From Halomonas huangheensis (GTDB lineage: Bacteria > Pseudomonadota > Gammaproteobacteria > Pseudomonadales > Halomonadaceae): a DNA stretch of 64,000 nt. The position numbers were made by a program, and so were the translations under genes. Positions 35,509 through 51,369 of this stretch are shown one piece after another. Within the stretch, counting starts at the first letter, position 1, and every line of letters begins with the position of its first letter. Location: NCBI RefSeq assembly GCF_001431725.1, contig NZ_CP013106.1, forward strand, positions 3,472,001 through 3,536,000, read 5' to 3'. The notes under the pieces are model-generated. The model did no database searches. It was not told the DNA's origin and was given only the letters and a program-made list of their open reading frames with translations.

Positions 35509-37554
35509 ATGCCCCATCTCGATGATGCTGCAACACCCCGCGATCGCCTGCATCCGATCGTGTTCCACGGTTCAATGATCGGTATCGTGGTCTTTCTCAT
35601 TTACACCATGACGTTTACCGAACAGGCCGGAGCGTTCTTCAGTGCTGGCCTGTCCTGGGTCAACGAGACCTTTGGTTGGTACTACATGCTTGCGGCAGTG
35701 GCCTACCTGGTGTTTGTCGTGGTGATCAGTCTGTCCCGGGTCGGCAACATACGTCTCGGCCCGGATGATTCTCGCCCTGAGTTCTCTACCCTATCCTGGG
35801 CATCCATGCTGTTCGCTGCCGGTATCGGTATCGACCTGCTGTTCTTCTGTGTTGCCGAGCCTCTTTCGCACTACCTGGCACCGCCGGATCTGGCTCCAGA
35901 AAGCCATGCGGCCCTACGCCAGGCAGTGCCACAGACGTTCCTGCACTGGGGACTGACCGGCTGGGGGATGTATGTACTGATGGGCATGGCGCTGGCCTAC
36001 TTCAGCTACCGTCATCGCCTGCCGCTGGCGATTCGCAGCGCGCTCTACCCGCTGCTGGGACGTCGTATCTACGGACCGATCGGGAATGCGGTGGATATCA
36101 CCGCGGTAATCTCAACGGTGTTCGGTATCGCCACCAGCCTCGGTATCGGCGTTATTCAGCTCAATTACGGGCTGAACTTCATGTTCGGCATTTCGGAGAG
36201 CATCTCGACTCAGGTGATCCTGATCGTGCTGGTAGTGATTCTGGCCACCATCTCGGTCGTCACCGGCGTGGAGAAAGGCATTCGCCGTCTGTCCGAGTTC
36301 AACATGCTGCTTGCCGCCTGCCTGCTGGTGTTTGTGCTCTTCCAGGGCCATACCCTGACACTGCTCAACGGCCTGGTCCTGAATATCGGCGACTACCTGT
36401 CCGGCTTTCTGTTCAAGAGCTTTGACACCTATGCCTTCGCCGGGGATGAGGCCCAGCAGTGGAAAGGCTGGTGGACCATTTTCTTCTGGGGTTGGTGGAT
36501 TGCCTGGACGCCCTTTGTCGGCCTGTTCCTCGCACGTATCTCTCGTGGGCGCACGATTCGTCAGTTCGCCATGGGCGCACTGCTGATTCCGCTCGCCTTC
36601 ATGATGGCGTGGATGTCGATCTTCGGTAATTCCGGTATCGACATGGTAACCAGTGGCCTGACCGAGCTGGGCGAACAGGCTCTGAATACGCCGCAGACCA
36701 CGATCTATACCTTCCTCGAACAATATCCCTACATCGGTATCACCGCTTCGGTGGTGACCCTGCTGGGCGTAGTGTTCTTCGTCACTTCGGCAGACTCCGG
36801 TGCACTGGTACTGGCCAACTTCACCTCGATCCTGAGCGACGTAAACCACGATGCACCCATTCCGCTGCGCATCCTGTGGTCTGCGGTGATCGGTCTTACC
36901 ACCATTGCGCTCCTGATGGCTGGCGGACTGAGCGCACTGCAGAGTGCCGTCGTCATCACCGCCCTGCCATTCTCACTGGTGATGTTCGCGATCATGTTCG
37001 GCCTGACACGAGCCCTGCGCACCGAGAAAGACAAGGCCGACGCGCGCCGTCTGGTCGCAGCAACCGGGGATGCCGGAAACTGGAAGGAGCGTCTCGACCA
37101 TGCATTGGACACCTCCAATCGAGCGGGCGCCTCAGCCACCATCGAACATGCCCTGCGTCCAGCCCTGCAACAGTTCGCTGAAGAGCTGAGACAACGTGGA
37201 CAGACCGCTTCTCTGAGCGAGGAGCAGATCGACGACGAACCGCTGCCACGTCTGACGCTACAGGTGGACTTCGAGGAAGTGCAGAGCTTCGTCTACCAGG
37301 TGCGCCCGCACCGCATGCGTACTCCGAGCTTCCTGCCGGTGGATGATGACTACTACCTACGCCTCGATGTGCATCTGGCAGAAGGTAGTCTGGGGCAGAA
37401 CCTCAATGGCTATAGCCGCGGTCAGGTGATTGATGATGTGCTCGGCGAGTACGAGCGTCATCTGCAGTTCCTCGCCCTTACTCGCGCGGATGGCACTCCG
37501 GCTCCGGCCATGCCTGGCAGCATCGGTGAGCCGCCGGAAAGCGCCACGATGTAA
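35509..37554 (+). CDS. betT: BetT-type high-affinity choline transporter (BCCT family)
   Basis: A 681-residue protein, close to the length of E. coli BetT. The glycine stretch reads GIGIDLLFF with Asp109, the residue typical of proton-coupled choline carriers where betaine carriers have glycine. The aromatic box is FWGWWIAWTPFVGLFLARIS. After twelve membrane segments comes a cytosolic C-terminal domain of about 170 residues, which in BetT is involved in osmotic control. Choline taken up would be oxidised to glycine betaine by BetBA, encoded elsewhere. The BetI-like operator upstream supports the substrate call. Confidence 0.92.
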   Translation: MPHLDDAATPRDRLHPIVFHGSMIGIVVFLIYTMTFTEQAGAFFSAGLSWVNETFGWYYMLAAVAYLVFVVVISLSRVGNIRLGPDDSRPEFSTLSWASMLFAAGIGIDLLFFCVAEPLSHYLAPPDLAPESHAALRQAVPQTFLHWGLTGWGMYVLMGMALAYFSYRHRLPLAIRSALYPLLGRRIYGPIGNAVDITAVISTVFGIATSLGIGVIQLNYGLNFMFGISESISTQVILIVLVVILATISVVTGVEKGIRRLSEFNMLLAACLLVFVLFQGHTLTLLNGLVLNIGDYLSGFLFKSFDTYAFAGDEAQQWKGWWTIFFWGWWIAWTPFVGLFLARISRGRTIRQFAMGALLIPLAFMMAWMSIFGNSGIDMVTSGLTELGEQALNTPQTTIYTFLEQYPYIGITASVVTLLGVVFFVTSADSGALVLANFTSILSDVNHDAPIPLRILWSAVIGLTTIALLMAGGLSALQSAVVITALPFSLVMFAIMFGLTRALRTEKDKADARRLVAATGDAGNWKERLDHALDTSNRAGASATIEHALRPALQQFAEELRQRGQTASLSEEQIDDEPLPRLTLQVDFEEVQSFVYQVRPHRMRTPSFLPVDDDYYLRLDVHLAEGSLGQNLNGYSRGQVIDDVLGEYERHLQFLALTRADGTPAPAMPGSIGEPPESATM

Positions 37555-38077: not shown

Positions 38078-38167
38078 TGTCTTGAGTTGCTGCTGATGGT
38101 TGGGATGTCGGCAGCTGATGCAACGCGTAGACTATCAATCTCCATTGGAACGGATACCTCGACACTC

Positions 38168-38881
38168 ATGGGCAGCACCCTTCCCCGCTATCTACAGATT
38201 CAGCAGCACCTGCTGGAAAAGATCCACAATGGCGACTGGGCGCCGGGATATCAGATTCCCCCCGAGGAACGCCTGGCGGAAGAGTTTGGCGTCAGCCGCA
38301 TGACCGCCAACAAGGCGATTCGCGACCTGGTTCAGCAAGGCTACCTGTCTCGCCACCCGGGTGTTGGCACCTTTGTCACAGATAGCAAGGCGGAGTCGTC
38401 ACTGGTAGAAGTCCACAATATTGCCGAGGAAGTGAAGGCGCGCGGCCACGATTACACCAGTGAGGTGCTGATCGCCGAGGCCCGCAAGGCCGATGATGAG
38501 GTGTCGATGCGCATGGGCGTACGTCTCGGCACCAGCGTCTTCCATACGCTGATCGTCCACCGCGAGAACGGAGTGCCGATCCAACTGGAAGATCGTTATG
38601 TCGATCCTCGTCAGGTGCCTCACTACCTGGATACCGACTTCGCTGTCCAGACTCCCAACGAAGTACTGGTCGCGGCCTGCCCGATCAGCGATGTCGAACA
38701 TGTCGTCGAGGCCGTTGCCGCCGATGATTTCATTGCCGACCATCTCGACATCCGCAGTGGCCAACCCTGCCTGCGCCTGATACGCCGCACCTGGTCCGGC
38801 GACAGGTTGATCAGTTATGCACGCCTCGTGCATCCCGGAGATCGCTACAAGCTGCGTTCATCACTACATACTGAACGCTAA
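38168..38881 (+). CDS. hutC: Histidine utilisation repressor HutC
   Basis: A 237-residue GntR regulator of the HutC subfamily. Winged helix at residues about 5-72 (LPRYLQIQQHLLEKI, then RLAEEFGVSRMTANKAIRDL), then a UTRA domain ending in RLVHPGDRYKLRSSLH. ATG 38168 is chosen because it yields the usual GntR start (PRYLQIQ); the frame is open 81 bp further 5'. It represses hut genes and is released by urocanate. Two candidate operators lie 1.6-1.9 kb downstream. Confidence 0.88.
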   Translation: MGSTLPRYLQIQQHLLEKIHNGDWAPGYQIPPEERLAEEFGVSRMTANKAIRDLVQQGYLSRHPGVGTFVTDSKAESSLVEVHNIAEEVKARGHDYTSEVLIAEARKADDEVSMRMGVRLGTSVFHTLIVHRENGVPIQLEDRYVDPRQVPHYLDTDFAVQTPNEVLVAACPISDVEHVVEAVAADDFIADHLDIRSGQPCLRLIRRTWSGDRLISYARLVHPGDRYKLRSSLHTER

Positions 38882-39118: not shown

Positions 39119-40435
39119 CTACATCAGCGCCTGCACCAGATACCCGGCCGGCACTGCCAGCAATAGTGACAAGGCAACACGCAGGAACCAGATGACCAGG
39201 ATGCGCCCGATCGACAAGGGAATCCGCGTCGCCATGATGCAGGGGATCGAGGCGGAGAAGAACAATATCGCCGAGACCGACACCACTCCGGCGGCAAAGC
39301 GCGCCACAAACTCGGCATCGGCCATCAACAACGCCGGCAGGAACATCTCGGCAAGACCCGATGCCGCCGCCTGCGCCAGACTGGCGGGATCATCCAGGCC
39401 CCAGATGGCGACGAAGGGATAGAACAACCAGCCAAGCCAGTCGAACAACGGTGTGTATTTGGCGATGAGTAGCCCGATCAGGCCCACCGACATGATGGTT
39501 GGCAGAATACTGATCGCCATCACCAGACCTTCGCGGAAATTCAGCCATACACTAGCGACGAGGCTGGGCGCCTCTTCCGCTGCCTTGACCCCCACTCGCC
39601 AGGCCGTCTGCAGGCGCTTGCCGGAATCCGCTACGGGCTCCTGATCAGTGGCGCTGTCATCGATCCTCGAGATCGGCGGCAAGCGCACGGTAATCGCGGT
39701 GACCAGGAAGGTGATCAATAGCGTCAGCCAGAAATACAGGTTCCATACCGGCATCAGATCCAGCGTGCGTGCGACGATGATCATGAACGTCGCCGAAACC
39801 GTCGAGAACCCGGTGGCAATCACCGCGGCCTCTCGCGCCGAATACTGTCCCGCCACATAGACTCGGTTGGTGATCAACAGACCAATCGAGTAACTGCCGA
39901 CGAAGGATGCCACTGCATCGATCGCGCTACGTCCCGGAGTACGCCAGATGGGTCGCATCACCGGTTGCACCAGCACGCCGATCAATTCCAGTAAACCAAA
40001 GCTGATCAGCAATGCCAGAAAGATCGCACCGATGGGCACGATCAGCCCCACCGGAATCACCAGTTTGCCGAACAGGAACGGCAGCATATCCGGCTCATGC
40101 AGAGCAGCAGGCCCCCAGCCCGTCAGCGCCATCAGCGCAGCCGCCACCCCAAGCACCTTGAACACCAGAAAGACCCGTTCAGTGGTGCTGTCACGCCAAC
40201 GTCCGCTGATCAACGGATAGAGCGCGCCAGCCACGATCAAGGCCAGCGCATAGAAGCCGCTGGCCTCTCCCAACAGACCACGCACCGCGCCGACCATGTG
40301 ATCCAGTGGAATGGTGGTCTTGCCACCGAGGGTGATGGGGACGAAGAAGATCAGGATGCCCAGCACACTGGGAATCAGAAGTTTGAGAATAGTCGCGACG
40401 GAAGGAGACGCCGAGGTTTCGGAGGAAGAGTGCAT
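39119..40435 (-). CDS. YjiH-family (nucleoside-recognition/Gate domain) membrane protein
   Basis: A 438-residue membrane protein with about ten segments and two Gate-like domains (SFVGSYSIGLLITNRVYVAG in the first; LPTIMSVGLIGLLIAKYTPL and ALLMADAEFVARF in the second). The family's transport substrate is not established. It is divergent from hutI, and a HutC-type box lies 67 bp upstream of its start, so it should be induced with the hut genes. That suggests it handles histidine, urocanate or a related imidazole. The function is inferred from regulation only. Confidence 0.82.
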   Translation of the reverse strand: MHSSSETSASPSVATILKLLIPSVLGILIFFVPITLGGKTTIPLDHMVGAVRGLLGEASGFYALALIVAGALYPLISGRWRDSTTERVFLVFKVLGVAAALMALTGWGPAALHEPDMLPFLFGKLVIPVGLIVPIGAIFLALLISFGLLELIGVLVQPVMRPIWRTPGRSAIDAVASFVGSYSIGLLITNRVYVAGQYSAREAAVIATGFSTVSATFMIIVARTLDLMPVWNLYFWLTLLITFLVTAITVRLPPISRIDDSATDQEPVADSGKRLQTAWRVGVKAAEEAPSLVASVWLNFREGLVMAISILPTIMSVGLIGLLIAKYTPLFDWLGWLFYPFVAIWGLDDPASLAQAAASGLAEMFLPALLMADAEFVARFAAGVVSVSAILFFSASIPCIMATRIPLSIGRILVIWFLRVALSLLLAVPAGYLVQALM

Positions 40436-40729: not shown

Positions 40730-40765
40730 TTTAGGTTTCACTCTCGATCCCCGGAGCACAGACTG

Positions 40766-41986
40766 ATGTCTTCCGAGACCACAACACCTTCCACATCGTT
40801 GGTATGGCGTGACATGACCGTCTTCGACGGCCTCGAGACACTGCCAGAGTCCATGGCAGTCGTAGTCAGCGACGGACACATCCGTCAACTGACGCCCATG
40901 TCCCGTTTCGATACTTCGGACCTCGATCAGTATCACGATATGGGCAGTGGCGGAGTGATGACGCCAGGCCTGGTCGACTGCCATACCCACCTGGTGTTCG
41001 GTGGCAGCCGTGCCGATGAGTACGAGGCACGACTGGAAGGCGTCAGCTATGAAGAGATCGCCCGCCGTGGTGGCGGCATTCTCAGTACCGTCAACGCCAC
41101 TCGCGAGGCCCGTGAAGACGAGCTCTACGCCGCGGCACGGCCTCGCCTCGAAGCCTTGATGGCCGATGGCGTGACCTGTGTCGAGATCAAGTCCGGCTAT
41201 GGTCTCGATGTCGATAATGAACTCAAGATGCTGCGTGTGGCACGTCGCCTCGGCGCCGATCTCCCGGTGCGGGTCGTAACGACGTTGCTCGGCGCTCATG
41301 CCTTACCGCCGGAATACCGCGATGACAGCGATGGCTACATCGACCTGGTATGTGACGAGATGATTCCGCGTGCCGCCGCCGAGGGGTTGGCCGATGCGGT
41401 GGACGTATTCTGCGAGAAGATTGCCTTTTCAGTGGCGCAGTGCGAACGCGTCTTCCATGCCGCCATCAAGCACGGCCTGCCGATCAAGGCCCATGCCGAA
41501 CAATTGTCGAACCTCGGCGGTACGGCCATGGCGGCGGAGCTCGGCGCACTGTCCGCCGACCATATCGAGTATCTCGATCAGCACGGCATCAATGCCATGC
41601 GCAAGTCCGGTAGCGTTGCGGTGATTCTACCTGGCGCTTTCCTGACCCTGCGCGAGACGCAGAAACCACCGATTGCCGAGCTACGTGCAGCTGGCGTGCC
41701 AATGGCTGTGGCAACCGATGCCAATCCCGGCAGCTCACCACTGTTCATGCCGACACTGATGCTCAACCTCGCCTGCACGCTGTTCCAGCTCACTCCGCGC
41801 GAGGCACTTTCCGGCATGACCGCACACGCCGCCAGTGCATTGGGTATGAAGGAAGTCGGCCGCCTGTATGAGGGCGCCCCCGCCGACCTCTGCGTATGGG
41901 ATATCACCACGCCTGCCGAGCTGGCCTATGCCGTGCAACCGGGTCGCCTGCGCCAACGCCTCTTCAAGGGAGACGTGAACTCATGA
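40766..41986 (+). CDS. hutI: Imidazolonepropionase HutI
   Basis: A 406-residue amidohydrolase. Metal ligands are in [11 protein letters not shown] and the late Asp in [12 protein letters not shown]; the substrate Tyr/Arg segment [20 protein letters not shown] is conserved. The start at 40766 is preceded by CCGGAG; the frame is open 135 bp upstream through the operator, which rules out the longer form. It converts imidazolone-5-propionate to N-formimino-L-glutamate, step three of histidine breakdown. The stop overlaps hutG by 4 bp. Confidence 0.93.
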
Positions 41987-42939
41987 GTCAACGCCAATCC
42001 CCGAGGACCATTGATATGTCCCTGTGGCAGGGACGCACCGACCCTGAACCCGATAGTGATCGCTGGCACCAGCGTGTGCGTGCCCTTGCCGCGGACGCCA
42101 AGCCCGGTGTGGCATTGATCGGCTTCGCCTGTGATGCCGGCGTGGCTCGCAACAAGGGCCGCATCGGTGCCGCCGGTGGTCCGGCTGTCATTCGGCGCGC
42201 CCTCGCCCCATTGGCCTGGCATCGTCACGGCCCGGCCCACGATGCCGGTGATGTGCGCTGTCAGGGCGATGCACTGGAAGATGCCCAGCATGAGCTGGCT
42301 ACTCGCCTTGCGGAACTGCTCAATGCGGGCCACAAGCCGCTGGTGATGGGCGGTGGCCATGAAGTGGCATTCGCCAGTTGGTCGGGGTTGGCGCGCCACC
42401 TTGCCGACCGAGAGACAAGACCCCGCATTGGCATCATCAACCTCGACGCCCATTTCGATTTACGCGATCCGAGCCAGGGGCATTCCTCAGGCACGCCCTT
42501 TGCGCAGATCGCAGACAGTTGCGAGCAACGCGGCTGGCCCTTCCGCTACGCCTGCCTGGGTGTCAGCCGTGCGGCCAACACTCGCGCACTGTTCCAGCGC
42601 GCCGAGTCACTCGGTGTGCTGGTGCACGAGGATCGTGATTTCACGCCCCCACGCTGCGAAGCCGTGGCTCGCGAGCTGGGGCGCTTCATCTCACGCTGCG
42701 ACCACCTCTATCTGACCATTGATCTCGATGTGTTCCCCGCCGCCGAAGCACCCGGCGTCAGTGCTCCAGCGGCACGCGGCGTGTCTCTCGCGCAGTTGGA
42801 GCCACTGATCGAGATCATTCGCGATAGCGGCAAGCTGCGGCTGGCCGACATCGCTGAACTCAACCCCGAGTTCGACCAGGACAACCGCACCGCCAGGCTG
42901 GCAGCGCGCCTCATCCACCTGCTGACCGTCAACGGCTGA
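41983..42939 (+). CDS. hutG: Formimidoylglutamase HutG (arginase family)
   Basis: A 318-residue manganese enzyme of the ureohydrolase family. Metal-binding motifs are [18 protein letters not shown] and [14 protein letters not shown]. It releases formamide from N-formimino-L-glutamate to give glutamate, so this organism uses the four-step (formamide) hut route rather than the HutF/deformylase route. It begins in the ATGA overlap with hutI. Confidence 0.93.
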
Positions 42940-43004: not shown

Positions 43005-44708
43005 ATGTCTTCCCAAGAGCAGTCATTGAAAACTCAACACGATAAGCGCCACGACTCCAGCCGCCGTATTTCTGCCCCCACCGGTACAGAGCTGTCCTGC
43101 AAGAGCTGGTTGACCGAAGCACCGCTGCGCATGCTGATGAATAACCTGCACCCGGATGTTGCCGAGCGTCCCGAAGACCTGGTGGTCTATGGCGGCATCG
43201 GTCGTGCCGCGCGCGACTGGGAATGCTTCGACAGAATCGTCGAAACCCTGCGTCGTCTGGAAGACAACCAGTCACTGCTGATCCAGTCCGGCAAGCCAGT
43301 GGGTGTATTCGAAACCCACAGGGATGCTCCGCGCGTGCTGATCGCCAACTCCAACCTGGTCCCCGCCTGGGCCAACTGGGAGCACTTCAACGAACTCGAC
43401 CGCAAGGGCTTGATGATGTACGGCCAGATGACCGCTGGTTCGTGGATCTACATCGGCTCCCAGGGCATCGTTCAGGGCACCTACGAAACCTTCGTCGAGG
43501 CCGGGCGCCAGCATTTCGATGGCGATCTCAAGGGACGCTGGATTCTGACCGCTGGACTCGGTGGCATGGGCGGTGCCCAGCCGCTGGCCGCAACCCTGGC
43601 CGGAGCCTGCTCACTGAATATCGAATGCCAGCAGACCAGCATCGATTTCCGCCTGCGTACCCGTTACCTCGATGAACAGGCCAGCGATCTGGATGACGCT
43701 CTCGAGCGTATCCAGCGCTATACCGCCGAGGGCAAGGCAATCTCCATCGGCCTGTGTGCCAATGCCGCCGACGTGCTGCCTGAACTGGTCAAGCGCGGCA
43801 TCAAACCGGACATGGTCACCGATCAGACCAGCGCCCACGATCCGCTGCATGGTTATCTGCCGGCCGGCTGGAGCTGGGACGAGTACGTGGAGCGTGGCAA
43901 GAGCGAGCCGGAAGCGACCGTCAAGGCGGCCAAACAGTCGATGGCGGTACACGTCAGCGCCATGCTCGAGTTCCAGAAGATGGGCGTGCCGACCTTCGAT
44001 TACGGCAACAACATCCGTCAGATGGCTCAGGAAGAAGGTGTCCACAATGCCTTCGATTTCCCCGGCTTCGTGCCCGCCTATATTCGTCCGTTGTTCTGTC
44101 AGGGGGTCGGCCCGTTCCGTTGGGTGGCGTTGTCCGGCGATCCCGAGGATATCTACAAGACCGATCAGAAGGTCAAGGAACTGATCCCCGACGATCCTCA
44201 CCTGCACAACTGGCTCGACATGGCTCGTGAGCGTATTGCTTTCCAGGGCCTGCCGGCACGTATCTGCTGGGTCGGCCTCAAGGATCGCGCTCGCCTCGGC
44301 CAGGCCTTCAACGAGATGGTCAAGAATGGTGAGCTCAAGGCGCCCATCGTCATTGGTCGTGACCACCTCGATTCCGGCTCGGTGGCCAGTCCCAACCGCG
44401 AGACAGAAGCCATGCAGGATGGCTCGGATGCGGTCTCCGACTGGCCGCTGCTCAATGCGCTGCTCAACACCGCCGGTGGTGCCACCTGGGTATCGCTGCA
44501 TCACGGCGGCGGCGTCGGCATGGGCTTCTCACAGCATGCCGGGGTGGTGATCGTGGCCGATGGCAGCGACGACGCCCATGCTCGTCTGGGCCGTGTACTG
44601 CGCAATGACCCGGCGACTGGCGTCATGCGCCATGCCGATGCCGGCTATGACATCGCCAGGGAGTGCGCCCGGGAGAATGGCCTCGACCTGCCAATGGTCG
44701 ATAAGTAA
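43005..44708 (+). CDS. hutU: Urocanate hydratase HutU
   Basis: A 567-residue NAD-dependent urocanase. Conserved features include [10 protein letters not shown], the NAD-binding [17 protein letters not shown], the [14 protein letters not shown] segment and C-terminal [15 protein letters not shown]. It hydrates urocanate to imidazolonepropionate with NAD+ as electrophile. Urocanate from HutH, and possibly from the second lyase at 49852, feeds this step. Confidence 0.95.
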
Positions 44709-44858: not shown

Positions 44859-44882
44859 GCCCGGCGAGATAAGGAATTCCCC

Positions 44883-46424
44883 ATGAACCATTTCGAGATA
44901 CACCCCGGCAAGATGAGCCTGGCACAAGCGCGCCGGGTCTTCGAAGCCCCCCTGCAGGTCAGCCTGCCGACGAGCGCCGATGCCAGGATCAGCGCCAGCG
45001 TCGACTGCGTCAATCGTGTCGTCGAAGAGGACCGCACCGTCTACGGCATCAACACCGGATTCGGCCTGTTGGCCCAGACTCGTATCGAAAAGGACAAGCT
45101 CGAGGACCTGCAGCGCTCACTGGTGCTGTCCCACGCCACCGGTGTCGGCAGCGCCATGGATGACGATCTGGTGCGCCTGATCATGGTGCTCAAGGTCAAC
45201 AGCCTGGCCCGCGGCTTCTCCGGTATTCGCCGTGAGGTACTGGATGCCCTGATCGCCTTGCTCAATGCCGAGGTCTATCCACATATCCCGCTCAAGGGCT
45301 CGGTCGGAGCCTCCGGAGACCTTGCTCCACTGGCGCACATGAGCGTGGTGCTGCTCGGCGAAGGTAAGGCTCGCCACAACGGCGAATGGCTGTCGGCAAC
45401 AGAAGCCCTCGAGATCGCCGGGCTCGAGCCGTTGTCCCTGGCACCCAAGGAAGGTCTGGCCCTGCTCAATGGCACCCAGGTCTCCACTGCCTATGCGCTC
45501 AAGGGCCTGTTCGATGCCGAGGACCTTTTCGCCGCCGCCACGATCTGTGGCTCGCTCACCGTGGAAGCTACCCTTAGCTCACGCTCCCCCTTCGATGCGC
45601 GCATTCATGAAGTTCGCGGTCAGCGTGGCCAGATCGATGCCGCCTCAGCCTACCGGGAATTGCTCGGCGCGCGCAGCGAGATCAGCGACTCCCATGTCGA
45701 TTGCGGCAAGGTCCAGGACCCCTATTCTCTGCGCTGTCAGCCTCAGGTAATGGGCGCCGTACTCACCCAGATCCGTCAGGCCGCCGAGGTCCTGGCCGCC
45801 GAGATCAACGCCGTCTCGGACAACCCTCTGGTGTTCGCCGAACAGGGAGACATCATCTCCGGCGGTAATTTCCACGCCGAGCCGGTCGCCATGGCTGCGG
45901 ACAACCTGGCATTGGCCATCGCCGAGATTGGCTCGCTCACCGAGCGACGCATCTCCTTGATGATGGACAAGCACATGTCCCAGCTCCCACCCTTCCTGGT
46001 GGAGCACGGCGGCGTCAACTCGGGTTTCATGATCGCGCAGGTGACAGCGGCCGGGCTCGCCAGCGAGAACAAGGCGCTAGCGCACCCGCATAGCGTCGAC
46101 AGCCTGCCGACCTCGGCCAACCAGGAAGACCATGTTTCCATGGCTCCGGCTGCTGGCAAGCGGCTATGGGAAATGGCCGACAACGTGCGCGGCATTCTCG
46201 CCATCGAATGGCTGGCCGCCTGTCAGGGGCTGGATTTCCGCAACGGTCTCAGGACCACCGACACACTGGAAAAAGCTCGCCGGGTACTGCGCGAGCGTGT
46301 CGCCTATTACGACAAGGACCGTTTCTTCGCGCCGGATATCGAAGCCGCCAGCGCACTCCTCGCGGAACGCCACCTCAGTCGCCTGGCACCTGCCGACCTG
46401 TTGCCCAGTCAGGCTCAGTATTGA
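44883..46424 (+). CDS. hutH: Histidine ammonia-lyase HutH
   Basis: A 513-residue lyase. The MIO cofactor triad Ala143-Ser144-Gly145 is present in [15 protein letters not shown], with [36 protein letters not shown] and NQEDHVSM completing the active site. The start at 44883 has AAGG upstream. It deaminates histidine to urocanate. It is separated from hutU by a 174-bp spacer holding the inverted repeat. Confidence 0.95.
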
Positions 46425-46778: not shown

Positions 46779-48113
46779 ATGAACGCAGTCGTTTTGGCCA
46801 TCCTGGTCATGGTTACCCTCAGCCTGATGCGTGTATCCGTCGTGTTCGCGCTGATCACCGCTGCTCTGATCGGCGGCCTCTACGCTGGCATGCCGGTAGG
46901 CGAGATCATTTCCGCCTTCAACGACGGCCTGGGTAACGGTGCCAAGGTAGCGATTTCCTACGCCGTACTGGGTGCCTTCGCCGTAGCGTTGTCACGTTCG
47001 GGCATCACCCAGTTGCTCTCCAACAAGGCCATCGCCAGGCTGGGGCTGGATGACGGAATTCCCAACCGCCAGTTGATCGTCTTCACCCTGCTCGGTGTGC
47101 TGCTGGCCGCAGCGGTGAGTTCCCAGAACCTGATTCCGGTGCATATCGCCTTCATCCCGGTGCTGGTACCGCCACTGCTCAAGCTGATGAACCACCTGCA
47201 GCTCGATCGCCGCGCCGTGGCCTGCGTGATCACCTTCGGTATCACCGCACCCTATATGCTGCTGCCCGTCGGATTCGGCTCGATCTTCCTGCACGACATC
47301 CTGCTGACCAATCTCAACGAGAATGGCCTGAACGCGACACCAGGCATGGTGCCGATGGCCATGATCGTGCCCATCGGCGGCATGGCCATCGGCCTCGTGG
47401 TAGCCCTACTGTTCAGCTATCGTCGCAAACGCAATTATCAGGACATCGAGCTGGCCCACGGCGATGAGACACCCAGACAGGCCGCCCAGCACCTCAAGCC
47501 CTGGCAGATGCTGGTACTGGCGACAGCCCTGGTCAGTACCGTCACGGTCCAACTGTTCACCGGATCGATGGTCGTCGGGGGGCTCTTCGGCTTTGCTCTG
47601 CTCTCGGTGAGTGGTGTATTCCGCTGGCATGAGCAGGACGGTATCTTCACCGAAGGCATGCGCATGATGGCTCTGGTCGGTTTCATCATGATCTCGGCGG
47701 CAGGCTTCGCCAGCGTGATGCAGGCCAGTGGCCAGGTCGAGGCGCTGGTCACCAGTTCCACCGAGATAATCGGCGACAACAAGGGACTGGCCGCCCTGGT
47801 CATGCTGCTCGTAGGGCTGTTCATTACCATGGGAATCGGCTCGTCGTTCTCGACCATTCCGATTATCGCTTCGCTCTACGTTCCCATGGCGCTGAACTTC
47901 GGTTTCTCGCCCATGGCGACCATTGCCCTGGTGGGCGCCGCCGCCGCTCTCGGCGATGCCGGCTCGCCAGCGTCCGACTCGACCCTCGGGCCAACGGCCG
48001 GCCTCAATGCCGACGGCCAGCACGACCACATCTGGGACAGCGTGGTACCAACCTTCCTGCACTACAACATCCCGCTGGTGGCCTTTGGCTGGATCGCTGC
48101 CATGACGCTCTGA
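46779..48113 (+). CDS. NhaC/YuiF-like permease, putative histidine transporter
   Basis: A 444-residue membrane protein with about eleven segments, of the Na+/H+ antiporter-like (NhaC/YuiF) group. Features: ALSRSGITQLLSNKAIARLG, SSQNLIPVHIAFIPVLVPPL, and AALGDAGSPASDSTLGPTAG near the end. Relatives found in hut clusters are assigned to histidine uptake. AAGGGGCAAG precedes the ATG. Position directly after hutH supports histidine or urocanate transport, but the substrate is inferred. Confidence 0.8.
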   Translation: MNAVVLAILVMVTLSLMRVSVVFALITAALIGGLYAGMPVGEIISAFNDGLGNGAKVAISYAVLGAFAVALSRSGITQLLSNKAIARLGLDDGIPNRQLIVFTLLGVLLAAAVSSQNLIPVHIAFIPVLVPPLLKLMNHLQLDRRAVACVITFGITAPYMLLPVGFGSIFLHDILLTNLNENGLNATPGMVPMAMIVPIGGMAIGLVVALLFSYRRKRNYQDIELAHGDETPRQAAQHLKPWQMLVLATALVSTVTVQLFTGSMVVGGLFGFALLSVSGVFRWHEQDGIFTEGMRMMALVGFIMISAAGFASVMQASGQVEALVTSSTEIIGDNKGLAALVMLLVGLFITMGIGSSFSTIPIIASLYVPMALNFGFSPMATIALVGAAAALGDAGSPASDSTLGPTAGLNADGQHDHIWDSVVPTFLHYNIPLVAFGWIAAMTL

Positions 48114-48221: not shown

Positions 48222-49859
48222 ATGGATACGCAAAACGATACACGCAACAGCAGGCGCAGCCTGAAACTCAGCGTGTTCCTACCGTCCTTCGCTATCATCC
48301 TGCTCGCCGTTGCCGTCGGGCTGATCAACAACGAATTGCTGGTCGAGGTGGCCAAGCAGCTGTTCTACATCTCGCTATCGGATTTCGGCTGGCTGTATCA
48401 GTTGGTCGCCGTATCCGCGCTCCTCATCACTACCTTTATCTTCTTCTCCAGGGCCGGCAACATCCGCCTCGGCGGCAAGGATGCCAAACCGCAGTTCTCC
48501 GTTGCCTCCAACTTCGCCATGGCATTGACCGGCGGTATCGCCACGGGTGTCGTCACCTACTCGGTCAACGAACCGATCATCTATCTGGGCAATATCTACG
48601 GCGAAATCGCGCAACAGGACTTCGCCGCAGGCAGCGGTGAAGCAGCGATCTTCGCACTGGCCAGAAGCTTCCATAACTGGAGCTTCATTCCCTACGCCAT
48701 CTATTCCATCGTCGGCTTGATGATCGGCTACATGCACTTCAATCGCCGCCAGAAATTTTCCATCTCTTCGACGATCACTCCGGTACTTGGCAGTCATGCC
48801 CATAAACCGGGGGTGCGCGCAGTGGTCGACATCATTTCAGTGCTGGCAATTGCCCTGGGGCTGGCCTCATCGCTGGGCGCTGGCCTGGCGTTGATCAGCT
48901 CTGGACTCCAGGCGCAATACGGTGTTGTGCCCAATGCCACCACCTGGTTGCTCATCAGTCTGGTCATCGCCGCGATCTTCATTACCTCCGCCATCTCGGG
49001 GCTCAAACGCGGCATTCGGATGTTGTCATCGCTCAACGCCTGGATCTTCTATGCCTTCGTCGCCATTCTGGTCGTGGTCGGGCCGTTGACTTACATCCTC
49101 AGCCTATCGGTCACCAGTTTCGGTTACTGGCTGGACAATCTGCTGCTGTGGTCCTTCGACACCAAGGAAGCGGGTGGTGAGGCGCTGGTCACCTGGTGGA
49201 CCATGTATGACTGGTCGATCTGGATCGCCTATGCACCGCTGATGGGCCTGTTCCTGGCGCGTATCTCCTATGGCCGTACCCTGCGTGAATTCCTGATCAT
49301 CAACTGGATCCTACCGTCGCTGTTCGGCCTGGTATGGTTCGCCATCTGGGGTGGTGCCGCCATCAAATGGCAACTGGATGGCAGTATCGATCTGATCAGT
49401 ATCGTCACCGAGAACGGTGCTGTCTCCGGTCTATGGGGCTTCCTGCAGCATCTGCCGCTGGCAGCGCTGCTGGTGCCGTTGGCGATCTTCACACTGGTCA
49501 TTTCCTTCTCCACTGCCGCGGACTCGATGTCCTCGACCATCGCCACCATCTGCACCCGCAATATCTCCGCCGACGAAGAGTCACCGACGCGCCAGAAGGT
49601 GCTGTGGGGACTGTCGATCGCCATCATCGCCTACATCATGGTGGCTTTCGGTGGCGGCGCCCAGGGAGTGGATGGCATCAAGTATCTGGCCGCAGCCGGT
49701 GGCTTCGCGGTGGTATTCCTGTTTGTGCTGATCCTGATCTCGGCGGCACGCACCTTTATCGGTTCCGGTGCAGGGCGAATGGAAGCAGAGAGACTGGAAG
49801 CAGAGGCCCTGGATGATGAAAACAAGCTCACAACCTTCAAGGAAAGCGCGCATGAATGA
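48222..49859 (+). CDS. Atypical BCCT-family transporter, candidate for trimethylated histidine
   Basis: A 545-residue BCCT protein. Fold signatures remain (LFLARISYGRTLREF, TAADSMSSTIA, NIRLGGKDAKPQFS), but the substrate region differs from the other two carriers here. The glycine stretch is GGIATGVVTY (residues 104-113) instead of GMGIGLMFY or GIGIDLLFF. In the aromatic box, WxxWxAYAPL replaces WWISWSPF: Ile333, Trp334 and Tyr337 stand where BCCT 1 has Trp377, Trp378 and Trp381. The stop overlaps the MIO-less lyase by 8 bp (ATGAATGA), which indicates translational coupling. BCCT substrates are quaternary ammonium compounds, so hercynine, ergothioneine or another imidazole betaine is proposed. 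The substrate is inference. Confidence 0.85.
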   Translation: MDTQNDTRNSRRSLKLSVFLPSFAIILLAVAVGLINNELLVEVAKQLFYISLSDFGWLYQLVAVSALLITTFIFFSRAGNIRLGGKDAKPQFSVASNFAMALTGGIATGVVTYSVNEPIIYLGNIYGEIAQQDFAAGSGEAAIFALARSFHNWSFIPYAIYSIVGLMIGYMHFNRRQKFSISSTITPVLGSHAHKPGVRAVVDIISVLAIALGLASSLGAGLALISSGLQAQYGVVPNATTWLLISLVIAAIFITSAISGLKRGIRMLSSLNAWIFYAFVAILVVVGPLTYILSLSVTSFGYWLDNLLLWSFDTKEAGGEALVTWWTMYDWSIWIAYAPLMGLFLARISYGRTLREFLIINWILPSLFGLVWFAIWGGAAIKWQLDGSIDLISIVTENGAVSGLWGFLQHLPLAALLVPLAIFTLVISFSTAADSMSSTIATICTRNISADEESPTRQKVLWGLSIAIIAYIMVAFGGGAQGVDGIKYLAAAGGFAVVFLFVLILISAARTFIGSGAGRMEAERLEAEALDDENKLTTFKESAHE

Positions 49860-51369
49860 CGTCCAGGCGGTGCAGATCACCACTGCACCACTCGGTTGGC
49901 AGCTGGTGGTCGCGGTCGCTCGCGACCGCCGGCCTCTGGAGCTGTCCGGTGACGTTCGCGAGCGTATTGCCGCTGCTCGTCAGGTGGTCGAGAAGATCGC
50001 TCGCTCGGACAAACCACACTACGGCATCAATACCGGACTGGGTGCGCTCTGCCATGTGGTGCTCAAGAATGACGAACTGGCACGCTTGTCACGCCATACG
50101 CTGATGAGCCATGCCTGCGGTGTCGGCGAAGCTCTGCGCGGAGAGCAGGTTCGCGCCATCATGTGCTGTGCGGTGGCCAACTACAGTCAGGGACATTCGG
50201 GCATCAGTCCACACATCGTCGATGCGCTGGTCGAATGCCTGAATCACGACATCATTCCAGTGGTGCCTGCTCAAGGGTCTGTGGGCTACCTCTCGCATAT
50301 GGCACATATCGGTCTGGCACTGATTGGTGAGGGCGAAGTGCTGCACAGAGGCCAACGCCGCTCTGCGGAACAAGCGCTGGCCGAAGAGAACATCGCCCCT
50401 GCCGCGCTGGGCCCCAAGGATGGCCTGAGCCTGGTCAATGGTACCCCGGCCATGACCGGGCTGGCCTGCCTGGCGCTGGCCGATACCGAGCAATTGGCCA
50501 ATTGGGCCGATACCATTTCCGCCATGAGCTTCGAAGCACTACGCGGTCAGCGTGATGCCTTCGACGATGCCGTCATCCGTCTCAAGGCTCAACCCGGCAT
50601 CCAGACCTCAGCCCGGCATCTGCGTCACATGATCGAAGGCAGCGAATGGCTCGAGCAGTGCCACGCTGATCATCTGCAGGATGCGCTCAGTTTACGCGCC
50701 ATTCCCCAGGTGCATGGCGCCTGCCGCGATCAGTTCAATCACGCCGCGCGCCAGATTGATGGCGAGCTCAACTCGGCGACGGACAACCCACTGGTTATCG
50801 CCACACAGGACGGCCATCGCATCGTTTCACAGGCCAATCCTCACGGTGCTTCCGTGGCCATGGCCTGCGACCTGCTGGCCATCGCCGTGTGTGAATGGAG
50901 CTCGATCTCGGAGCGCAGGAGTTATCGCCTGGTCACCCCTCAGGCCAACCAGTTACCGCCCTTCCTGAGTGAAGCCAGTGGCGTGAAGTCGGGGATGATG
51001 ATCGCCCAGTACAGCGCCGCATCACTGGTCGCCGACAACAAGCGTCTCGCTCAGCCAGCAGTGACGGATAACTATCTGACATCGGGACTGCAGGAGGATC
51101 ACCTCAGCCTGGGAGAAAGCGCAGCGCTCAAGCTCGACCAGGCATTGAGCAATGGCTTCCACGTGCTCGGTATCGAATACCTGCTGGCAGGCCAGGCACT
51201 GGACCTGATTGAGGGTAGTTGCTTCGGGCATGGCACCGAGGAGGCGCGTAGCCACCTGCGGCACCATATCGATTTCTATGACGAGGAACATCCGCTACAC
51301 CGGGATATGGCGGCGGCATCACAACTGCTGAGATCGACCAGCCTGACCAGCAATAGCGGTGCCATCTGA
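49852..51369 (+). CDS. HutH-like lyase lacking the MIO triad (ergothionase-like)
   Basis: A 505-residue homologue of histidine ammonia-lyase. It aligns with the HutH encoded 5 kb upstream, but [15 protein letters not shown] becomes GSVGYLSHMAH: the Ala-Ser-Gly residues that form MIO are missing, with GSVG at 142-145 followed directly by Tyr146. Much of the active-site frame is kept: Tyr57 in HYGINTGLG, SHACGVG, SLVNGTP, QLPPFL, and Glu415 in QEDH. Differences include LQDALSLR for [16 protein letters not shown] for NFHAEPVA, and GVKSGM with Lys379 where HutH has GVNSGF. Without MIO an alpha-amine is hard to expel, but trimethylamine is already a good leaving group, as in ergothionase. Expected products are trimethylamine plus urocanate (from hercynine) or thiourocanate (from ergothioneine). 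ATG 49852 lies within the BCCT stop overlap. Confidence 0.88.
   Translation: MNDVQAVQITTAPLGWQLVVAVARDRRPLELSGDVRERIAAARQVVEKIARSDKPHYGINTGLGALCHVVLKNDELARLSRHTLMSHACGVGEALRGEQVRAIMCCAVANYSQGHSGISPHIVDALVECLNHDIIPVVPAQGSVGYLSHMAHIGLALIGEGEVLHRGQRRSAEQALAEENIAPAALGPKDGLSLVNGTPAMTGLACLALADTEQLANWADTISAMSFEALRGQRDAFDDAVIRLKAQPGIQTSARHLRHMIEGSEWLEQCHADHLQDALSLRAIPQVHGACRDQFNHAARQIDGELNSATDNPLVIATQDGHRIVSQANPHGASVAMACDLLAIAVCEWSSISERRSYRLVTPQANQLPPFLSEASGVKSGMMIAQYSAASLVADNKRLAQPAVTDNYLTSGLQEDHLSLGESAALKLDQALSNGFHVLGIEYLLAGQALDLIEGSCFGHGTEEARSHLRHHIDFYDEEHPLHRDMAAASQLLRSTSLTSNSGAI

Follow-up and report, generated by a model that had tools for sequence, protein, structure and literature searches.

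The locus considered here is a hut cluster in a window of 64,000 nucleotides from Halomonas huangheensis (contig NZ_CP013106.1, positions 3,472,001 to 3,536,000; the window is the whole stretch of DNA that was analysed). Besides a canonical histidine ammonia-lyase gene, hutH, the cluster holds a second gene of the same superfamily, whose product lacks the residues that form the 4-methylideneimidazole-5-one (MIO) cofactor. We refer to this protein and its close kin as HLP (HutH-like protein), and to a more distant branch as rHLP; the function proposed for HLP is release of trimethylamine from hercynine (histidine betaine, N-alpha-trimethylhistidine). The features of the locus are as follows.

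49852..51369, + strand: HLP, MIO-less HutH-like protein, proposed hercynine trimethylamine-lyase (505-amino-acid open reading frame, PF00221, own clade)
50275..50307, + strand: loop GSVGYLSHMAH, replacing the MIO-forming loop (translation and alignment)
48222..49859, + strand: BCCT transporter, proposed hercynine importer (PF02028, 391.7 bits; below the named BCCT family cut-offs)
44877..46424, + strand: hutH, canonical histidine ammonia-lyase with Ala-Ser-Gly in translation (TIGR01225, 726 bits, cut-off 539.15)
43005..44708, + strand: hutU, urocanase (TIGR01228, 989 bits; NF058530, 680 bits, below its cut-off of 930)
41983..42939, + strand: hutG, formimidoylglutamase (TIGR01227, 333 bits, cut-off 229)
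40763..41986, + strand: hutI, imidazolonepropionase (TIGR01224, 469 bits, cut-off 298)
38123..38881, + strand: hutC, repressor (TIGR02018, 292.5 bits, cut-off 220)
39119..40435, - strand: membrane protein, often encoded next to hut clusters of this kind (tblastn contexts)
46779..48113, + strand: Na+/H+ antiporter-family permease of the cluster (PF03553, 249.8 bits)

The HLP reading frame runs its full length without an internal stop. A profile search places its product firmly in the PF00221 superfamily (534.7 bits against a gathering score of 27.3); the score with the hutH equivalog profile TIGR01225, 500.4 bits, falls short of the cut-off of 539.15, and that of the broader NF006871 is barely reached (525.1 bits, cut-off 524). 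HLP shares 37% identity with the HutH encoded in this cluster, whose gene ends 3.4 kb upstream. In alignment with that protein its loop is three residues shorter and the Ala-Ser-Gly triad, the source of the cofactor in HutH, is absent. The sequence-only reading had described a HutH paralogue missing exactly this triad: the loss of three residues holds, while the identity of the residues lost depends on the alignment, ours giving A142 replaced by Tyr and S143, G144 and D145 absent. It had also pointed to retention of the segments HYGINTG, SHACGVG and QEDH, and all three are indeed kept. The genome contains three matches to HLP, namely HLP itself, HutH and a distant third. The last (L003, C1:476950-478230) is a PF00221-like protein with Ala-Ser-Gly, encoded beside a probable lipid acyltransferase gene, and presumably resembles the aryl-polyene type.

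The shortened loop is a property of a family. A protein search gave 7996 matches; among the 120 listed, the query included, all carry GSVGY[LI]xHxA, the others at 56-70% identity to the query, and the deletion of three residues is present in all 40 aligned HLP/rHLP members. The loop is thus no sequencing slip, and the intact frame together with the clade-wide short loop rules out both sequencing error and pseudogene. A shifted MIO triad is likewise ruled out, since HLP has no ASGD and each clade member inspected has a shortened loop. Among the matches listed, source names include Halomonas, Zobellella, Oceanimonas, Salinivibrio, Paracoccus and many Pseudomonas, the usual labels being histidine ammonia-lyase or HAL/PAL/TAL family ammonia-lyase; one homologue cluster (P0066) by itself represents 1326 member sequences. 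The rHLP branch occurs chiefly in rhizobia and other Pseudomonadota. At least 23 of 398 sampled genomes of the phylum, our own included, carry a copy with at least 42% identity, and all 22 copies fetched from that sample besides the window copy have the short loop. Within the genus, 3 of 37 genomes (again with our own) carry a copy at 68-100% identity; in this count a 42% match in one genome (G442) proved to be HutH, and matches at or below 40% were taken as HutH without reading each loop. HLP is an accessory trait.

In a tree of 38 rows (MIO columns removed, LG+C20 model) HLP and rHLP form one clade, supported at 100/100 and apart from HutH; ergothionase-type rows and a third type, labelled AAD, form another, also at 100/100. 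The HLP clade recurs in a quick tree of 76 rows, and by these sequence comparisons HLP is a coherent MIO-less clade. HLP, rHLP, ergothionase, AAD and a Klebsiella type group together at 92/91. A single clade of all MIO-less rows is not rejected (p-AU 0.394). Forcing HLP to group with the HutH rows, to the exclusion of the ergothionase types, gives a marginally disfavoured topology (p-AU 0.044). The long branches of 6s7j, L003, 7tqr and the Klebsiella type make it hard to tell one loss of MIO from several.

A close comparison is with ergothionase of Treponema denticola (PDB 6s7j, 6s7q), a PF00221-type lyase that, like HLP, does without MIO. HLP could itself be an ergothionase, removing trimethylamine from ergothioneine to give thiourocanate. 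The two share a superfamily, the missing triad and, given the 92/91 grouping, conceivably a MIO-less ancestor. However, the T. denticola loop, SSIGEGDITTLSH, is one residue shorter than that of HutH, whereas the HLP loop is three shorter; HLP is 31% identical to this ergothionase and 24% to a second (L055), and it lies outside the branch formed by 6s7j and the lyases adjoining thiourocanate hydratase.

The active-site columns speak to the same point. We number these after Pseudomonas putida HutH (Ala-Ser-Gly at 142-144), the numbering and the roles of the residues being assumed. In all 40 HLP/rHLP rows Tyr53, His83, Asn195, Gln277, Arg283, Gln413 and Glu414 are kept, while Tyr280 has become Leu and Val386 has become Tyr. 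The T. denticola ergothionase keeps the Tyr53, His83, Arg283 and Glu414 positions. Four aligned ergothionase-type rows have Leu at 280, as HLP does, a further point in favour of an ergothionase; they differ in having Lys at the 386 column, where HLP has Tyr, Ser in place of Asn at 195, and a 413 column occupied by Ile or Leu. Lys occupies the 386 column in both AAD rows as well. Lys383 of 6s7j, a position counted from the printed chain and presumably catalytic in ergothionase, falls in a column that holds Lys in 4/4 ergothionase rows and Tyr in 40/40 HLP rows (Tyr387 in the window protein). The suggestion from the sequence-only reading that Lys379 might be a residue common with ergothionases did not survive: among 30 HLP rows that position holds Lys 17 times and Asn 13 times, the 10 rHLP rows have His, Asn, Cys or Arg there, and its column is not that of the ergothionase lysine. 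Glu415, proposed in the same way, is invariant, but it is kept in HutH too. The picture from the alignment is of a family that has retained the polar set of HutH, differs from it next to the site of the absent cofactor, and is without the ergothionase lysine.

Genomic partners point in the same direction. Ergothionase partners include thiourocanate hydratase (NF058530), for which the only urocanase-type match in our genome is HutU, below the cut-off as listed above; none of 14 named HLP genomes has a match above it either. In the 398-genome sample the cut-off is passed in five, and in four of these (L055-L058) a 6s7j-type lyase lies within the 18 kb fetched, with none found there in the fifth (L059). 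Three of the five (G107, G253, G043) also carry HLP, on a separate contig, where hutC and a transporter of HisJ type accompany it. The presence in one cell of two lyases from different branches and with different partners argues for different substrates. HLP is most likely ergothionase-like in its working, yet it departs from ergothionase in branch, lysine and partner, and we regard an ergothionase function as unlikely.

Other MIO-less lyases came to light in the course of these searches. A fourth, ergothionase-like type has the loop GS[IL]GAAD (L090, 4540-5994; L022, 7965-9428; L143; L169; L175), with Lys at the ergothionase-lysine column in two aligned rows; the L090 copy lies four genes' width from HLP and adjoins OpuA-type transporter genes, and the L022 copy adjoins hutC. 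Another type (L111, 9006-10508; loop GSVGYLGPEGH), from a genome that also carries HLP (G062), keeps Tyr280 and adjoins a HisJ-type ABC transporter. A Klebsiella pneumoniae plasmid (L020, 7989-9521) encodes a lyase annotated as aromatic amino acid ammonia-lyase, with the loop GSVGYLIATAH; its gene lies inside a hut cluster on that plasmid, which also encodes an OpuAC-type transporter. In all, 199 Klebsiella plasmid records have some match, the loop having been read for this one alone and some others being ordinary HutH-like.

We turn to the neighbourhood of HLP. Across 40 HLP/rHLP loci – the window included, the other MIO-less types at L020 and L111 excluded – a hut gene other than hutH is present at 35 and hutU at 27, while at 15 there is no hutH in the examined stretch. 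Within 4.5 kb of the lyase gene we found a BCCT transporter at 16 loci, an OpuA (glycine-betaine) type ABC transporter at 10, a HisJ/ArgT-type ABC transporter at 10 and none at four (L014, L023, L101, L106). These classes were verified by profile on representatives (BCCT PF02028, OpuAC PF04069, ProV-type ATPase); an Erwinia binding protein matched the Lys/Arg/Orn family below its cut-off. As a control, the same distance rule was applied around hutH in 20 hut clusters from genomes without a match above 40%, yielding no BCCT, one OpuA-type (L113) and no HisJ-type transporter. Any of the three classes is present at 36 of 40 loci, against 1 of 20; the rows are related and Fisher values are therefore only a guide.

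In the window the 3' end of the BCCT gene overlaps the start of HLP by 8 bp. A genome of the same genus (G086, L112) has hutC, the membrane protein gene, hutI, hutG, hutU, hutH and the antiporter-family permease in the window order, without BCCT and HLP, so that this permease also occurs in a hut cluster lacking HLP; in two others (G439, G441) the BCCT-HLP pair sits between hutU and hutH, whereas in the window it comes after the antiporter. Judged by these arrangements, BCCT-HLP behaves as a two-gene module.

The transporter has peculiarities of its own. All 16 BCCT proteins adjoining HLP carry the motif WWTMYDW[SA]IW in the eighth transmembrane segment (TM8), the window copy reading WWTMYDWSIW. 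The BetT encoded elsewhere in the window (35509-37554) reads WWTIFFWGWW and solved carriers WTIFYWAWW at the same motif; the Asp present in the 16 HLP-adjoining proteins, unlike BetT, is a candidate contact for imidazole. The transporters are evidence of class only, and they and this unusual Asp would suit a rival in which HLP acts on another N-methylated or quaternary relative of histidine, for example dimethylhistidine or S-methyl-ergothioneine. Against that rival, HutU scores 716.9, far short of the 880 required for S-methyl-thiourocanate hydratase, and linkage to ordinary hutU and hutI calls for plain urocanate as the product. The product of HLP is probably urocanate, and we consider such alternative substrates improbable.

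Genomes without canonical HutH are informative here. Seventeen HLP genomes, chosen partly for stretches lacking hutH, were searched with HutH: a canonical enzyme with ASGD is present in 14 and absent from three. In Corticimicrobacter populi (G398) HLP is the sole match; in Salinicola socius (G400) HLP is accompanied by an aryl-type ASG paralogue (34%); in G308, which is 100% complete, HLP is joined by an AAD type and, at 33%, another aryl-type ASG paralogue (the first two are draft assemblies without a completeness figure). In all three hutU, hutI and a BCCT gene adjoin HLP. Salinicola peritrichatus (G399) has two clusters, one with hutH, hutF, hutU and hutI and one ordered hutC-hutF-hutU-HLP-hutI, in which HLP occupies the place of hutH. 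In the 398-genome sample a urocanase-family match is present in 23 of 23 HLP genomes, compared with 155 overall.

Taken with the foregoing, these data make it quite probable, in our judgement, that HLP is a hercynine trimethylamine-lyase giving urocanate to HutU. Under this proposal the BCCT encoded just upstream would import hercynine, the inward direction being presumed; HLP would bind imidazole and carboxylate in much the manner of HutH and would eliminate trimethylamine to leave urocanate, a substrate, product and chemistry likewise presumed; and HutU, HutI and HutG would convert urocanate to glutamate. Known HAL/PAL/TAL enzymes require MIO to activate the amine. HLP would need none, since trimethylamine departs readily without such activation – it is the leaving group in the ergothionase reaction (PMC13405746). 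The requirement for MIO tells against a further rival, namely that HLP is a MIO-free histidase or a HutH paralogue that has lost catalysis and serves in regulation. That HLP is the sole close HutH-like gene beside hut genes in 3 of the 17 chosen genomes would fit a histidase; a BCCT or OpuA partner would be unnecessary for histidine, and retention of the active-site positions in 40/40 rows speaks against a dead copy. We think this rival very unlikely.

Several observations weigh against the assignment of HLP as a hercynine lyase. The departure of the window BCCT from the usual TM8 motif means that it may carry something other than plain betaine, at 10 loci the transporter is of HisJ/ArgT type and not of betaine type, and four have none nearby. 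An OpuC-like binding protein that favours ergothioneine about 10,000-fold over hercynine is described in PMC9732360; since a betaine-type protein specific for ergothioneine thus exists, transporter class alone is not decisive and only hints at the substrate. HutH is also present in 14 of the 17 genomes, so most do not show HLP feeding HutU. A scan of the window for HutC operators, using a known pattern, gave 10 matches where 17.9 were expected by chance, no enrichment. For EgtD, which would mark hercynine synthesis of its own, the genome has no match, a weak negative because the cut-off is likewise missed by all 14 control genomes. The sequence-only reading had proposed a MIO-less betaine lyase supplying the hut enzymes, with hercynine preferred to ergothioneine: the comparative evidence (transporters, neighbourhoods, HutH-less genomes, the missing thiourocanate hydratase and the active-site columns) favours this as the putative function.

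The gene itself has been met before. In the hut operon of Pseudomonas fluorescens SBW25 the order hutU, permease, OpuA-type ABC transporter, hutH1, hutH, hutI is matched with HLP in the hutH1 position at four of our loci (L092, L096, L097, L110), where HLP adjoins ABC genes resembling hutXWV and precedes hutH. The HLP-type short loop is also seen in homologues under the labels Pseudomonas syringae, P. protegens and others. This correspondence is drawn from synteny and named homologues, not from the SBW25 protein sequence; by synteny, then, HLP is the hutH1 that has been a puzzle in the hut operons of Pseudomonas, so that the gene as such is known. The Pseudomonas partner is an OpuA-type transporter and the gene lies upstream of hutH, whereas the window partner is a BCCT and the pair follows the antiporter. 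HLP has the hut setting and the imidazole- and carboxylate-binding positions in common with HutH, from which it differs in the missing Ala-Ser-Gly, the two substitutions at 280 and 386, its separate clade and its TIGR01225 score. We take PA5093 to be the HutH1-like gene of P. aeruginosa. PMC12772324, in conflict with this, names PA5093 hutG; hutH1 of SBW25 is dispensable on histidine (PMC8871633).

No hercynine lyase is described in the literature searched, mostly outside subscription journals, and the function would be new, if true. We lean, with some reserve, toward a broader proposal: that a widespread family filed as histidine ammonia-lyase, Pseudomonas hutH1 included, would be hercynine lyase which, with an importer of BCCT, OpuA or HisJ type, provides a portable second entry to the hut pathway – and the only entry in C. 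populi, S. socius and G308, where 'hut' might be read as hercynine utilization. If so, an enzyme would be assigned to the breakdown of hercynine, the precursor of ergothioneine, and hutH1 and the betaine-type transporter of Pseudomonas hut operons would be explained. Trimethylamine would gain a further microbial source, numerous proteins would have their names put right, and the case would indicate that the MIO enzyme family can dispense with its cofactor once the leaving group changes. Hercynine was detected in 9 of 10 cyanobacterial strains in one study (PMC3826126).

A minor observation concerns possible frame or stop defects at related loci: an in-frame TGA lies in the hutH match at L132 (G402), one is reported in the HLP match at L099 (G356), and hutU is in two pieces at L182 (G441).

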